A DNA stretch of 32,315 nt from Gammaproteobacteria bacterium (GTDB lineage: Bacteria > Pseudomonadota > Gammaproteobacteria > GRL18): assembly GCA_015231865.1 (NCBI GenBank), contig JADGAU010000021.1:1-32315 (forward strand), written 5' to 3'. The notes beneath the pieces were generated by a model. That model did no database searches. It was not told the DNA's origin and saw nothing but the letters and a program-made list of their open reading frames with translations. Positions 5,836 to 32,251 of this stretch are shown piece after piece. Position 1 is the first letter of the stretch. Every line of letters begins with the position of its first letter. The position numbers and the translations under genes are program-made.

Positions 5836-8757
5836 ATGGAAATGTCAATTAATGAAACATACCCTATGAACTTAACTTTTACTGATGAACAGGTTAAAGG
5901 TTTATCCATTATCCCTATATCAATGTCTGGTTTAAATATTCGTGTTATTAATGCACTAGAAAAACATGAAAAGAACTCTCTTTACTCAGCTATAGTAGAA
6001 ATAAAATCTGGGCTTAATTCGATTAAAGGAATTGGAACAAAATCAATTGAGGAAAGTAAAGTCGTAGTAGAACAAATTATATCTAGATTAAAGTCATTTC
6101 CTCCTGAAGAAGAAAGTGACCTAGATTATCGGCTTGCCTTATTTGATGGTTTATTTCCTGACAAAGAAGTTAGAAAAGCACTTGAAAGCTTACCAATAAG
6201 TATGATTGGTTTAAGTAATAGAGCGATTAATACTATAGAAAAAAAACATATTTCCAATATATACGAAGCTGTCATCGAAATCAAAACTGGCTTTCAAACA
6301 ACAGAAGGGATAGGAAAAAAAACTATCAATGAAAGCATTCAAATAATAGATGCAATGCTACTAAAGTTAAAAGGTGTTGCCCCTCATTTGATTGACAGTG
6401 TCATCGACCCCAGGACACTTTACTTTAAAGAAGCTGAAGGTAATTTTCTAGCAATATTAAATGAAATAGTTGATATATATTTTGAAAAACAAGTAAAACA
6501 AAACAAAAAAAGAAATAAAAATGTCCTGATAAAAAGGTTTAATCTAGATGGAAGTGGTATTTATAGGCTTGAAGAAATTGGTACATATTATGATGTTTCC
6601 AGAGAAAGAATAAGACAAATTGAAGAAAAAACACTGAAAGAAATAGAATTGTTACTTACAGGGCAGTTAAAAACAAAAGAATGGTATTTAGATAAAAAAA
6701 TCATCAACAATTATAATCAGTTGAAACATATATTATATTCTAAAGATTTTATTATATTGCATTCTGAGCTTCTTGATATCATTGATGGGCAATCTCAAAA
6801 TCAGTTTAATGACTTATACTTACCTCTTTTAATGGAGTTGCTTGGTTTTTTTCGTTTAGCCAAAACCTACACTAATTTTCGAGGTACTATATACGATAGT
6901 TGGTGTAGAACAGATCATTTTAATCCTCCTGATATAGAGTCTTTATTTGTAGCCCTGAATGTTGTCTTTGAAAACCCTGAACCTATTAGTTTATTTGATT
7001 TAATAGTGAAAGTTAAAAAGAAATCACGTAAAAAATTCACAAATGATGTTATACATTTAGCTTTAAAAGTATGTCCTGAAATTGAAATTAATGATGATGA
7101 GCTATACGTTAAACCAGAATTTACTAAATCAACAACTGATAAAGCATATAAAATTTTAGCAATTAATAATGATAAGATGCACTATTCTGAGATATTAAGA
7201 GAAATTAATTCATTAGGTAATAATAAAACGTATACTAGACTAAATTTAACTAATCAATTAGCTGCAGATGATAGGTTTATTTCAATTGGTAAAAGTGGAT
7301 ATTGGGGACTAAAAAAATGGGGAACAATTAATAATATTAGTATTGTCAAAGTAATGGAGAATCTTTTACACAGAATATCAAAACCTGTTTCTTATCATCA
7401 AATATTACAAGAAACACAAAAGATAAGACCAGATGCTAAAGAAAAATCTATTAAAATTTACTTAGATACTAAACCAGATATATTTGCTCGTGTTGATAAA
7501 GATCATTATGCTTTAACAGTTTGGAATTTGGTGTCTTACCAAGGGCAGCGTTCCCAAGCAAGATTAACAAATTCAGAATTTTATGAAAAAACTCTTCAAG
7601 TCCTGCAGAACAAAAACCCAATAAATTTTTCTGACTTTATTAGACAAATGATGAAACTGACTAATTCAAAAAATTCAACTATAAGACAAAGAGTTTTAAA
7701 ATCCCCATTACTTACCGCCCGATTTATAAACTCAAGAGAGAAAGAGATATATTGTGATAATTTAGACAAATTAAAAAATTATAAAGATAAAGATTCAACA
7801 CTTAGATATGAAATACAGAACCGTATAGTAGATTTATTAAAAGGAGAAGACAAACCCATTACTAAGGGGGATTTATATAAAAAACTATCGAAAAATTTTA
7901 CATGTGTAAAACAAACATTTTATAGATATTTAAGTGAAATGAATGGAATCAGGCAGTTTATCGAAAATAATAATTCATATGTAGAGGTAATAGATAAAAA
8001 ACAAAGAAATGAAAAATATATAACCGTTGATGAGTTTAAAAAACTTAGAAATGATATATTTAAACTATCTAGTGATTTAACTGATCTAAAAGTATCATCC
8101 GAATCTAAAAACGAACAAATCGATGAAATATACAAGCTATTAGATAAAGAAAGTGAAAATGCTGATATATCAAAATATCAAAATAATGTAATTATAGAAT
8201 TCCCTAAATATAATCTTTTAGAAAATAATTCGTTAAAATTCTTAGAATCTTCTTACTATCTTTATGATAAATTAAAAGAAGTACAAGGAGATGATTACTC
8301 TCCTTATGTATTGCAATTTTCCCGTGTCATAGAAAATGAGTTGCTTCATAAGTTTTTCATACCTTTTAATAGAAAATTCAATTTATATGAAGATAAGAAT
8401 GAAATTCTAGAAAAAGAAATGAATAACTTTAATACTAAAATATTTGCAAAATTTTTGTATAAAAATAATGAAAAATATACTCTGGGGTCAATGCAAACGA
8501 TTATTGGATTCATATATAAAAGTAATGGAAATACATTACAAAAATCTACTTTATTACAGGTTTTCAGAAAATATGTAATAACCTTAATTAATCCAGACTT
8601 TTTATCTAAAGACAATGTGGATTTACTGTCAACCTTAACTAGTAAATATAGAAACAAAGCTGCTCATACTGAAATAATAACATTTGAGGATGCCAATGAA
8701 TTTTCAAGTGTTACAAAAAGTCTGATTACCTTGTTATTAAACTCTTATAAGTTGTAG
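5836..8757 (+). CDS. 973-aa multidomain protein: 2x RNAP alpha-CTD-like HhH, sigma-70 region 4 HTH, multiple HARE/winged-helix-like repeats, coiled coil, C-terminal HEPN-like domain
   Basis: LPISMIGLSNRAINTIEKKHISNIYEAVIEIKTGFQTTEGIGKKTINES (alpha-CTD-like, duplicated); LIKRFNLDGSGIYRLEEIGTYYDVSRERIRQIEEKTLKEI (sigma4); MHYSEILREIN...RFISIGKSGYWGLKKW (HARE-like); RNKAAH (HEPN-like motif). Confidence 0.85.
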   Translation: MEMSINETYPMNLTFTDEQVKGLSIIPISMSGLNIRVINALEKHEKNSLYSAIVEIKSGLNSIKGIGTKSIEESKVVVEQIISRLKSFPPEEESDLDYRLALFDGLFPDKEVRKALESLPISMIGLSNRAINTIEKKHISNIYEAVIEIKTGFQTTEGIGKKTINESIQIIDAMLLKLKGVAPHLIDSVIDPRTLYFKEAEGNFLAILNEIVDIYFEKQVKQNKKRNKNVLIKRFNLDGSGIYRLEEIGTYYDVSRERIRQIEEKTLKEIELLLTGQLKTKEWYLDKKIINNYNQLKHILYSKDFIILHSELLDIIDGQSQNQFNDLYLPLLMELLGFFRLAKTYTNFRGTIYDSWCRTDHFNPPDIESLFVALNVVFENPEPISLFDLIVKVKKKSRKKFTNDVIHLALKVCPEIEINDDELYVKPEFTKSTTDKAYKILAINNDKMHYSEILREINSLGNNKTYTRLNLTNQLAADDRFISIGKSGYWGLKKWGTINNISIVKVMENLLHRISKPVSYHQILQETQKIRPDAKEKSIKIYLDTKPDIFARVDKDHYALTVWNLVSYQGQRSQARLTNSEFYEKTLQVLQNKNPINFSDFIRQMMKLTNSKNSTIRQRVLKSPLLTARFINSREKEIYCDNLDKLKNYKDKDSTLRYEIQNRIVDLLKGEDKPITKGDLYKKLSKNFTCVKQTFYRYLSEMNGIRQFIENNNSYVEVIDKKQRNEKYITVDEFKKLRNDIFKLSSDLTDLKVSSESKNEQIDEIYKLLDKESENADISKYQNNVIIEFPKYNLLENNSLKFLESSYYLYDKLKEVQGDDYSPYVLQFSRVIENELLHKFFIPFNRKFNLYEDKNEILEKEMNNFNTKIFAKFLYKNNEKYTLGSMQTIIGFIYKSNGNTLQKSTLLQVFRKYVITLINPDFLSKDNVDLLSTLTSKYRNKAAHTEIITFEDANEFSSVTKSLITLLLNSYKL

Positions 8758-9001: not shown

Positions 9002-9045
9002 ACATTTTGAGAAATGCTACAAACATAACTTATTGATTTTACAAG

Positions 9046-9118
9046 TCTCCCCAGCGCGACTCGAACGCACATCGGAACCTTAGGAGGGATCTGTTCTATC
9101 CGGTTGAACTATGGGGAG
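9046..9118 (-). tRNA. tRNA-Arg (anticodon CCT), CCA not encoded
   Basis: Cloverleaf readable by eye on minus strand: CTCCCCA..TGGGGAG acceptor, D arm GTTC/GAAC, anticodon loop CTCCTAA, T arm GTGCG-TTCGAGT-CGCGC. One U-U mismatch in the anticodon stem. Confidence 0.9.
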
Positions 9119-22764: not shown

Positions 22765-24270
22765 ATGTGCGGTATTATTGGAATTGTTGCCCATGACAAT
22801 GTTAATGAAAGTTTGTATGAAGGCTTAACTGTTTTACAGCATAGGGGACAGGATGCTGCGGGTATTGTTACCTATAAAAGTGGCAGAATGCACCTTCGTA
22901 AAGATAATGGCCTGGTTAAAGAAGTTTTTGGTACCGAACACATGTTCCGATTGCAAGGTAGAATGGGTATAGGTCATGTCCGTTATCCAACTGCTGGAAC
23001 ATCCTCAACGGCAGAAGCACAACCTCTATATGTTAATTCACCCTATGGTGTTGCCATGGCTCATAATGGTAATTTGACCAATGCAGATGAACTGGCACAG
23101 GAAATTCTTTTAAAAGATCATAGACACTTAAATACTGACTCTGATTCCGAAGTATTACTTAATATTTTTGCACATAAATTGCAGGCAAGTGGCCATCAAA
23201 GGATTAATGATGAAGATGTTTTAAACGCAGTAGAAAATGTTCATCAACGCTGTCGAGGTGCTTATGCTGCTGTTGCCATGATAACAGGATATGGCATTGT
23301 TGGTTTTAGAGATCCACTGGGGATCCGTCCTGTCGTTATTGGAGAAAAGAAAACAGATAAAGGAACTGACTATTGTATTGCCTCAGAAAGTGTTGCTTTA
23401 GATGTGCTAGGCTTTAAACTGATAAGAGATATTGCTCCTGGCGAAGCCGTTATTTTACGATATGATGGTAAACTTATTACACGCCAATGTGCAGAAAACC
23501 CACAATATCGTCCCTGTATTTTTGAGCATGTTTATTTTGCCAGACCTGACTCAATTATAGATAATATCTCAGTATACAAAACCCGTTTAAGAATGGGTGA
23601 AACACTGGCACATAAAATCATGCGGATCCGCCCTGATCATCAAATTGATGTGGTCATTCCAATTCCGGACACCAGTCGTGCCTCGGCAATGGAACTGGCT
23701 TTAACGCTCGGTGTTAAATATCGTGAAGGTTTCATAAAGAATCGTTATATCGGTCGAACTTTTATTATGCCCGGACAAAAACAGCGTAAAAAATCTGTGA
23801 AACAAAAACTTAATGCCATGAGTTTAGAGTTTAGAAAAAGAAATGTTTTATTAGTTGATGACTCTATCGTTCGTGGTACGACATCCAAAGAAATCGTAAA
23901 AATGGCACGAGATGCCGGTGCTAGAAATGTCTTTTTTGCTTCTGCTTCTCCTCCGGTTTGTCATCCCAACGTCTATGGAATTGACATGCCATCACCAACT
24001 GAATTTGTTGCCTACAATAAAACTGAAGAAGAGATTGCCAAAGCCATTGGTGTTGACTGGTTAATCTATCAGGATTTGGATGATCTAATTGCCTCTTGTA
24101 TTCGAGGCAACAAAAAAATCACAAAATACGACACTTCTGTCTTTAATGGTGAATATGTTACCGGTGATATTGATGCCGCATATTTAAAGCGTATCAATAA
24201 AAGAAGAAATGATAAATCTAAACAAGCCCGTTTTCATCAAAATGTAGAGATTTTAGGGATCAACAACTAA
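22765..24270 (+). CDS. purF: Amidophosphoribosyltransferase
   Basis: MCGIIGIVAH N-terminal Cys nucleophile; LQHRGQDAAGI; VLLVDDSIVRGTTSKEIV. Confidence 0.98.
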   Translation: MCGIIGIVAHDNVNESLYEGLTVLQHRGQDAAGIVTYKSGRMHLRKDNGLVKEVFGTEHMFRLQGRMGIGHVRYPTAGTSSTAEAQPLYVNSPYGVAMAHNGNLTNADELAQEILLKDHRHLNTDSDSEVLLNIFAHKLQASGHQRINDEDVLNAVENVHQRCRGAYAAVAMITGYGIVGFRDPLGIRPVVIGEKKTDKGTDYCIASESVALDVLGFKLIRDIAPGEAVILRYDGKLITRQCAENPQYRPCIFEHVYFARPDSIIDNISVYKTRLRMGETLAHKIMRIRPDHQIDVVIPIPDTSRASAMELALTLGVKYREGFIKNRYIGRTFIMPGQKQRKKSVKQKLNAMSLEFRKRNVLLVDDSIVRGTTSKEIVKMARDAGARNVFFASASPPVCHPNVYGIDMPSPTEFVAYNKTEEEIAKAIGVDWLIYQDLDDLIASCIRGNKKITKYDTSVFNGEYVTGDIDAAYLKRINKRRNDKSKQARFHQNVEILGINN

Positions 24271-25034
24271 TGTCTAAATTAATTTTATTTACAGCACTAT
24301 CTCTATTAATTGCTGTTAATGCCGATGCAGTTGAATACCAGGCAACTATAAAATATGAAAATACTCTTAAATTGAATAGTCCTGTTACTGGAGTGATTCT
24401 TGAAGTTGCTAAAGAAGGAAAATATTACTCATCTGGCTCAACATTAATAAAATTTGATAATCAAATCATTAACAACAAAGTTAATCTTAACAAAAAACAA
24501 CTTAAACTAGCTCAGTTAAAGCTGGCAGAACAACAAAAAGAAATGGATAGAGCTCAGGAATTATATGATGCCAATAATTTAGCTGATTATGACCTTAAAA
24601 AGACACAAATGAATTTGCTACAATCCCAAGTTGATTTACAACAAATCAGTAATATGCTGATTCAGAACCAATGGCAGCAAAATTTTTATCAGCTTAATGC
24701 CCCAAAAAATGGTTTTTTAGTTGCCGCAGAGGTTTACCAGGGTGAATTTATTAACAATAAACTAACAAGCAAGTCCTTATTAAACTTTGTCCCAGACGAT
24801 AAGATCCTGGCAAAAGTATATTTAGATAAAAATAATTTAACGCAACTCAGTTTAACTTCAGAAAATAAAAAAATTTCTCTAATTTATCAAGAGCAATCAA
24901 TTGCAGGTCAATTAGTTGCAATCCATGACCACGAAAAACAGATTGTATTAGACATTAAACTTATTAAAAGTGACCAACTACCTGTAGATAAAAGTTTAGT
25001 TAAAATACGTTTAAACGATACCCAGGATAAGTAA
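24270..25034 (+). CDS. HlyD-like periplasmic adaptor/membrane fusion protein
   Basis: Signal peptide; biotinyl-lipoyl-like KLNSPVTGVILEVAKEGKYYSSGSTLIKFD and coiled-coil hairpin. Confidence 0.75.
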   Translation: MSKLILFTALSLLIAVNADAVEYQATIKYENTLKLNSPVTGVILEVAKEGKYYSSGSTLIKFDNQIINNKVNLNKKQLKLAQLKLAEQQKEMDRAQELYDANNLADYDLKKTQMNLLQSQVDLQQISNMLIQNQWQQNFYQLNAPKNGFLVAAEVYQGEFINNKLTSKSLLNFVPDDKILAKVYLDKNNLTQLSLTSENKKISLIYQEQSIAGQLVAIHDHEKQIVLDIKLIKSDQLPVDKSLVKIRLNDTQDK

Positions 25035-25078
25035 TATTTCTAAGTTTTAATCTCACTAAGTACATCTAAATTATTGAT

Positions 25079-25312
25079 TTATACACAACCCTGATTTTCT
25101 GAGAATTTATCTATAAATTGCACTCAAAATTAAATATAAAGTCAATAAGAAATAACAGTATAAAACATAAGATATTGTTATTAAATGAATTATTTTTTAG
25201 AAAGGTTTTATTGTATAAGTTTTACACAATCTATATCAAAGCTTTTATTATCAGGCTAATATCAGCTTATGAAATACTTATACACAAAGTTATCCACAAA
25301 ATTTGTGTATAA
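25079..25312. promoter_or_regulatory. Cluster of four perfect DnaA-box 9-mers (TTATNCACA)
   Basis: TTATACACA 25079-25087 (+), TTATACACA 25278-25286 (+), TTATCCACA 25290-25298 (+), TGTGTATAA 25304-25312 (- strand TTATACACA). Confidence 0.75.
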
Positions 25313-25314
25313 CT

Positions 25315-26343
25315 TTAGGTAAGATCCAATAGTTTGCTAACAACTCGATGACAACCTCTGCCATCGACCCAATGACTCGCAATTGCTGATAATTTAGATA
25401 AGTTTTTTAACTCAAGAAAATGATAAAAAGAGGACAATAATTGTTCAATACAAGTGTTTTGCTGACAATCAATAAACTGACACCATTGATAATTTATATT
25501 TGAAGAAATAAAACTTTCCTGATTTTTAGCAACAATGGCAAATACCGATGGTACACCACAGCTTGCCAGTTCATACACTGTCGAACCTGCTGCCGATATT
25601 GCAAGCATAGCCTGACCCAATATTTGATCCATATTATCTATGTTATGCAGGTGAATAAACCCAGCCTGCTGGCATAAATTTTCAATATCAGAGGTATTTT
25701 TAAAAGCAGCTCCAGTGATCACTAGCACCTCAAAATGAATGAGGCGTTTATCCTTCATTAATTGAGATACTAAAGGTACAGTTAAACCATTGACATCAGC
25801 ACCACCAAAACTGACTACGATTTTATTACGCTGTTTAAATAAATATTTTTTAGCTGCATCAGTAAAGTTTGGACGAATCAATGCATACTGATGACCTAAA
25901 CAAAATTGTGCCTTTGGAGCAAACTTTTGGTAGTGTTTCTGAACAAAGCAATCTGCCGGATTGATCACCATATCGGCATATAACGGTCCTCGATTACATT
26001 CATCATCAATAATGATTAGTTTACTATTTTCTATGTCGGACAATTGTTTAAATAAAATACGATCATAACTATAATTATCAATAATAATAAAGTCATACTG
26101 GCTCGCTTTTTCAATAAAATCTTGTTCATCATCAATGATTAACACATGATGTGGAAGAAACTTATTAACCCCCAATGTTTCAACTGTCGACTTTTTCACT
26201 GCAAAAGCACATTGAATTAAAATATCTTTTAGTCTTAATGTCTCTAAAAATGTATCAGCTAATGATTTACAACGATAATAATGCCCCAAACCTATTCCTG
26301 CTCCGGCATCTAGTCGAAAAACTAATAATAACTTGTTATTCAT
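25315..26343 (-). CDS. PseG-like UDP-sugar hydrolase / glycosyltransferase-fold protein
   Basis: FRLDAGAGIGLGHYYRCKSLADTF; IIDDE; VVSFGGADVNGLT; AISAAGSTVYELASCGVPSV. Confidence 0.78.
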   Translation of the reverse strand: MNNKLLLVFRLDAGAGIGLGHYYRCKSLADTFLETLRLKDILIQCAFAVKKSTVETLGVNKFLPHHVLIIDDEQDFIEKASQYDFIIIDNYSYDRILFKQLSDIENSKLIIIDDECNRGPLYADMVINPADCFVQKHYQKFAPKAQFCLGHQYALIRPNFTDAAKKYLFKQRNKIVVSFGGADVNGLTVPLVSQLMKDKRLIHFEVLVITGAAFKNTSDIENLCQQAGFIHLHNIDNMDQILGQAMLAISAAGSTVYELASCGVPSVFAIVAKNQESFISSNINYQWCQFIDCQQNTCIEQLLSSFYHFLELKNLSKLSAIASHWVDGRGCHRVVSKLLDLT

Positions 26344-31183: not shown

Positions 31184-31453
31184 AATTTCCGATATTCCAG
31201 GTTATTAATTAGGACAAAAGCTGTTTTAATGTTTTATCACGAACATTTGTTAGTGGCAAATGTTATTGGAAAAAAACTCAAATTATTAGCTCTGCTTCCC
31301 TTAAATGTTGTTAGTTCTTTGTCCCTTTTAGATAAGTGTAACTAGTTTATCTTCTGCTAGAATTATCTAATTATTGAAAACTAATTGAGACATAATAATT
31401 TAACCCTATATAAATTGATAATTTATATTAATTTAACTAACAGAATTTGTGCC

Positions 31454-32251
31454 ATGATTAAAAAATCAATAGAAACTTTTATTTCGAATAATAACTTTCA
31501 ATATTTTATTACCGGCTTAATCATTTTTAATGGCATTCTCATGGGCCTGGAAACCTCAAAAAGCCTAATAGATTCTTATGGTCAAATGATGCATTTTTTA
31601 GATAATCTAATTGTTGCAATTTTTACCGTCGAAATTATCCTCCGAATCTATGTATATCGATTAAACTTCTTTAAAGATCCCTGGAGTCTGTTTGACTTTT
31701 TTGTGGTTACTATATCATTGATACCGGCCAGTGGTAATTTATCAATTCTTCGGGTATTAAGAGTTTTACGTTTATTTCGACTATTAACCATAGTGCCGCA
31801 AATGCGTATTATTATTGCCGCATTAATTGGCGTTATTCCTGGCATCGCATCGGTATCATTAGTCCTAATACTGTTTTTTTATGTGTTTGCGATTATGTCG
31901 TATAACCTATTTGGAGAAACCTATCCTCAATGGTTTGGTGGATTAGGCGCATCAATGTACACACTTTTTCAGATAATGACTTTGGAAAGCTGGTCGATGG
32001 GCATTGCCAGACCGGTTATGGAAACGCATCCTGGAGCCTGGCTATTTTTTGTTATTTACATTTTGATTGTGACTTTTATTATGGTTAACTTATTTATTGG
32101 TCTCATCGTCGATGCCATTTTCACCATTAAAGGCAATGATAAAGATAATGAAAAAGATAATGAAGATCATGGATTAACAGAAAAAGACCAAATTCTTGCG
32201 CTAAGAAATGAAATCAAAGAATTAAAACAAATTATTTTATCTAAGAAGTAA
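31454..32251 (+). CDS. Voltage-gated sodium channel, BacNav/NaChBac-type
   Basis: S4 [14 protein letters not shown] (Arg every third residue); filter TLESWSM; six-TM ion-transport pattern; C-terminal coiled coil. Confidence 0.9.

Follow-up and report, generated by a model that had tools for sequence, protein, structure and literature searches.

The region at positions 25067-25312 of the window, i.e. of the whole 32,315-nucleotide stretch of DNA analysed here, is very probably a DARS-type (DnaA-reactivating sequence) element that would promote the release of ADP from DnaA, a reading to which we assign a probability of roughly 0.87. The element occupies an intergenic gap of 280 bp (25035-25314) with a GC content of 22%, bearing out the AT-rich gap between convergent genes that the first-pass annotation had described. 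The features of the locus are listed below, distances being given relative to the 35-bp core.

24270-25034, plus strand: flanking gene, RND-type periplasmic adaptor-like (TIGR01730, E 7e-18, under the curated cut-off)
25067-25079, minus strand: distal IHF consensus site, TAAATTATTGATT, perfect to TAANNNNTTGATW, at -210
25079-25087, plus strand: distal DnaA box, TTATACACA, abutting the distal IHF site
25168-25180, minus strand: proximal IHF-type site, TAAGATATTGTTA, one mismatch, at -109
25213-25227, plus strand: Fis consensus site, GTATAAGTTTTACAC (GNNYANNNNNTRNNC), at -64
25220-25228, plus strand: DnaA box overlapping the Fis site, TTTTACACA, perfect to TTWTNCACA
25278-25312, plus strand: candidate DARS-type core of 35 bp, TTATACACA-AAG-TTATCCACA-AAATT-TGTGTATAA
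25278-25286, plus strand: DnaA box III of the core, TTATACACA
25290-25298, plus strand: DnaA box II of the core, TTATCCACA, nearly invariant in other copies
25304-25312, minus strand: DnaA box I of the core, TTATACACA, facing box II
25315-26343, minus strand: flanking gene, PseG-type UDP-sugar hydrolase (TIGR03590 PseG, 190.7 bits, cut-off 153.55)

The RND adaptor-like gene and the distal IHF site are separated by 32 bp, and the stop codon of the PseG-type gene is located 2 bp past the core. As anticipated for converging genes, no promoter role emerged, with 7 sigma-70-like matches compared with 3.5 ± 1.9, which is not clearly beyond chance. Elsewhere in the window, judged by sequence only, the product of 31385-32251 resembles a bacterial voltage-gated sodium channel of the single-domain type, with the filter TLESWS, the gene at 1342-2454 appears to encode an ISAs1/H-repeat-type IS transposase, and the one at 5836-8757 encodes a protein of 973 amino acids with apparent RNA polymerase alpha-CTD-like helix-hairpin repeats and a sigma-70 region 4-like helix-turn-helix (VSRERIRQIEEK).

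All four TTATNCACA boxes named in the first-pass annotation were recovered (25079-25087, 25278-25286 and 25290-25298 on the plus strand, 25304-25312 on the minus strand), and the close packing of three of them was confirmed, their exact span being 35 bp. The additional box TTTTACACA was found where it had been placed, at 25220-25228, but its description as a one-mismatch box did not hold, as it matches the usual consensus TTWTNCACA perfectly. The gap hence contains five consensus boxes (four TTATNCACA and TTTTACACA) against a mean expectation of 0.066, and not one of 3000 sequences simulated with a first-order Markov model, which keeps the dinucleotide composition, contained as many. In the whole window TTATNCACA occurs seven times, compared with a shuffle mean of 2.0, and seven was reached in 0 of 100 shuffles. 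Genome-wide statistics were obtained by pattern searches with reversed-pattern controls in the draft genome (3.54 Mb, 299 contigs). The inverted pair TTATNCACA-N(0-30)-TGTGNATAA was detected only at the 25278-25312 cluster, where it forms two nested pairs, and the reversed control pattern gave zero matches in the whole 3.54-Mb genome.

The features common to DARS elements are a core of three DnaA boxes, a spacing that is equal at DARS1 and DARS2, and a box I oriented opposite to boxes II and III (PMC5742627). In the window three perfect boxes lie within 35 bp in the order box III, 3 bp, box II in tandem, 5 bp, inverted box I, with AAG and AAATT as spacers and the strands +, +, -. The cores that we extracted from the genome of E. 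coli MG1655 read TAATACACA-TGG-TTATCCACA-GGAAT-AGTGGATAA for DARS1 and TTCTTCACA-ACT-CTATCCACA-GAAAA-GGTGAATAA for DARS2, so that orientation and 3/5-bp spacing of the window core are identical to those of both E. coli elements; the middle box TTATCCACA is moreover identical to that of DARS1. The element is intergenic and probably lies away from oriC, with dnaA being located on another contig.

The same arrangement bears on whether the locus could instead be datA-like, inactivating DnaA by IHF-dependent hydrolysis of the DnaA-bound ATP. E. coli datA lies near tRNA genes; the only tRNA gene of the window, at 9045-9118, is 16 kb away, and we rejected a tRNA-linked datA. As in datA, an intergenic cluster of DnaA boxes is combined with an IHF site, which abuts a DnaA box at 25067-25087. 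datA, however, assembles DnaA head-to-tail on boxes on either side of its IHF site (PMC5742627), whereas in the window the only cluster of boxes includes a head-to-head pair spaced as in DARS, and the distal IHF site has no consensus box nearby on its other flank. With no head-to-tail box pair around the IHF site, the datA option raised by the first-pass annotation was abandoned, and we regard this function as extremely improbable.

The accessory sites were analysed by aligning the three copies of the element in the organism's own genome on their cores, which revealed the same upstream layout within otherwise diverged sequence. A perfect Fis consensus is located at -64 in all three copies, a perfect IHF consensus at -210, -211 or -212 abuts a DnaA box, and this box lies at -198, -199 or -200, with one mismatch in the third copy. 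A weaker IHF-like sequence is found near -108, with one mismatch in the window and about two in the sister copies. Among family copies the Fis consensus occurs at -65/-64 in 34 of 38; with near-duplicates removed it is present at -66 to -63 in 21 of 25 (background 0.4%), and in 16 of 42 unrelated copies (background 0.3%). An IHF consensus, one mismatch being allowed, lies at -99 to -95 in 31 of 42 unrelated, 12 of 17 uvrB-linked and 6 of 10 priA-linked copies (background 0.2-0.7%), and a DnaA box at -210 to -170 accompanies 27/42, 16/17 and 9/9 copies of these groups, respectively (background 2-6%). The IHF position peaks at -98/-97 in other taxa and at -107/-108 and -97 in the family, where, including the window, the site is often displaced outward by about one helical turn (-107 to -109; 8/25 after removal of near-duplicates). 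The uvrB-linked copies are without a Fis consensus. Many of the uvrB-linked (DARS1) loci L073-L142 carry the IHF consensus at -98, which is degenerate in E. coli MG1655, and many also have a DnaA box near -196/-176.

Comparison with the two E. coli prototypes yielded likenesses to each. DARS1, located between bioD and uvrB, shares with the window DnaA-box-like words some 180-200 bp upstream, but the window element does not lie beside uvrB, and DARS1 is without an IHF consensus at about -98, having two mismatches to the consensus kept by many of its relatives, whereas the window has both Fis and IHF sites. DARS2, in the rppH-mutH region, resembles the window in that its IHF sites, Fis sites and additional DnaA boxes all flank the core on the box III side. 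Fis and IHF sites indeed stand beside the window core (Fis at -64, IHF perfect at -210 and with one mismatch at -109), but in DARS2 the IHF pair is nearer to the core (-86 and -70, the two sites being 3 bp apart, as published) and Fis is further out (-124), while in the window Fis is nearer and IHF further away. The DARS2 order core - IHF pair - Fis is thus replaced by core - Fis - IHF, and the neighbours are PseG and the RND adaptor-like gene instead of mutH. Judging from these predicted sites, the accessory order IHF-Fis-core is a layout unlike both E. coli prototypes.

Conservation of the box spacing in relatives, proposed as a check by the first-pass annotation, was borne out, as 20 of 23 other family genomes carry strict copies, one to three each and often two or three, in which the second spacer is always 5 bp although 3-8 bp were allowed. 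In the own genome the 35-bp unit occurs three times with up to three mismatches (the window, C239:4817-4851 and C270:7804-7838; reversed pattern 0). The family copies lie at ccmA/MOSC-like, STAS/ArsS, NhaA and HD-GYP loci; we looked for synteny shared between the window copy and the other family copies and found none. When both spacers were left free (0-30 bp, 961 allowed combinations) in 369 genomes of the class, 22 of 27 matches fell at 3/5, with 0 matches in the control. With up to three mismatches the unit was present in 294 of the 369 genomes and in 223 of 272 genera, the reversed-pattern control giving 2 matches. A phylum-level search returned matches in most members of the class and in a few other families, among them f207, f211, f215 and f228, but no unit in the four large families f213, f216, f219 and f223 (71 genomes). 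In f207, f211, f215 and f228, which belong to the phylum but not to the class, the unit is often present in several copies.

In a collection of named genomes at least 80 loci were found; among the matches listed all are Gamma- or Betaproteobacteria by title, including Enterobacterales, Alteromonadales, Xanthomonas, Methylococcales, Nitrosomonas, Competibacteraceae and others. Again among the matches listed, the direct neighbour is uvrB, the neighbour of E. coli DARS1, at at least 25 loci and priA at at least 11, and many other places occur. In a range of gammaproteobacteria outside the enterics, the priA-linked cores (L045, L072, L075, L097, L098, L101, L102, L110, L114, L117 and L128) are located directly upstream of this gene, which codes for the replication restart helicase; we found no description of this recurrent location in the DARS literature examined.

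This distribution also speaks to the idea that the locus is a bidirectional transcription terminator, an inverted repeat with box-like words arising by chance. Such a role would suit the convergent genes and the near-perfect inverted repeat formed by boxes II and I. However, no terminator-like site was found, other copies of the 35-bp unit are flanked by genes in tandem or divergent orientation, as in those upstream of priA and of a STAS-domain gene, and conservation of the third box, a direct one, is just as strong. These points leave the explanation with hardly any credibility. Less remote, and still improbable, is that the locus serves DnaA titration only, its boxes soaking up DnaA and setting the free-DnaA level without nucleotide exchange. 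Five consensus boxes per 280 bp fit this idea, and titration on the E. coli chromosome has been argued for in work from 2025 (PMC12371093). Titration, however, requires neither the exact 3/5 spacing nor the inverted box, both of which are conserved class-wide, and has likewise no need for conserved Fis and IHF positions. Of the titration role suggested in the first-pass annotation there thus remains a possible side effect, while the strictly conserved geometry is left unexplained by titration alone. The DARS-like role suggested alongside it is strongly supported by the geometry identical to E. coli, the recurring copies and the fixed positions of the IHF and Fis consensus sites.

The trans-acting factors that a DARS element would use are encoded in the genome. 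The dnaA gene, on contig C51, is cut by the contig end, and its product is 47% identical to E. coli DnaA over 311 columns; residues matching E. coli D269, R281, R285 and L290 are present, these being general AAA+ residues that are not DARS-specific. Hda is encoded, above the curated cut-off, as are Fis (94 amino acids, 48% identical, E 2.7e-18) and several proteins of the HU/IHF family, an assignment at family level that does not tell IHF subunits apart from HU. A DiaA homologue is encoded beside YraN-like and BON-domain-like genes in the order yraN-diaA-BON-like, these names being read from the sequence.

The location of dnaA also bears on the option, raised in the first-pass annotation, of an atypically placed replication origin, which could be the main or a secondary one. 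A GC content of 22% and DnaA boxes are compatible with an origin, and IHF and Fis sites occur in origins as well. dnaA, however, lies with rpmH/rnpA on contig C51 next to a very AT-rich intergenic region bearing boxes of its own (C51:978 and 1077, and more with one mismatch). Further, the genome has three DARS-type elements, none of the proteins flanking about 120 related cores matches DnaA, and the E. coli elements that share this core do not function as origins. We rejected the origin because a dnaA/rpmH region with boxes exists elsewhere and three elements are present per genome, and consider it very unlikely. The local GC skew changes from + to - at the locus, which is uninformative given the convergent genes, and a plasmid search using the locus gave no match.

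Returning to the DARS-type element, we infer by analogy that DnaA, IHF and Fis would bind to the region and that ADP would be released by head-to-head DnaA at boxes I and II, for which ADP release from head-to-head DnaA in E. coli serves as model (PMC8682772, PMC5742627). ADP-DnaA would bind to the core, the molecules bound at boxes I and II, which face each other, would meet head-to-head through their AAA+ domains, and ADP would be lost. The apo-DnaA would then depart from the core and bind ATP. IHF and Fis may bend the DNA upstream of the core, thereby timing the assembly of the complex to the appropriate stage of growth or of the cell cycle, and the outcome would be ATP-DnaA regenerated for the next initiation at an oriC located elsewhere. 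Several points argue against the DARS reading, namely the accessory order, which is unlike that of E. coli DARS2, E. coli DARS1 being described as working without IHF and Fis, the imperfect proximal IHF sites and the gene neighbourhood, which is not shared with the family copies.

In the literature examined, conservation of DARS is described only for 'E. coli-proximal' beta and gamma species (PMC5742627 being the source for the common features used above), and we found no wider survey of DARS conservation, of IHF and Fis sites or of other taxa in the openly accessible literature. On balance we favour the view that DARS regulation is ancestral to almost the entire class Gammaproteobacteria, the betaproteobacteria among them, and extends beyond the relatives of E. 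coli. The element would usually be present in one to three copies with the standard layout DnaA box - IHF (about -98) - Fis (about -65) - core that the window displays, E. coli DARS1 having lost the IHF consensus and DARS2 having exchanged the accessory order. So far, DnaA recharging by DARS has been described almost exclusively in E. coli and its close relatives, whereas a simple pattern search recovers the core in about 80% of the class genomes sampled, IHF and Fis sites being placed at set distances from it. If this view is true, regeneration of ATP-DnaA would be a general feature of the class, and the uvrB- and priA-linked copies would be ready test objects in other model species. The fixed sites further suggest that control by IHF and Fis may be the ancestral state, which E. 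coli DARS1 would have lost.
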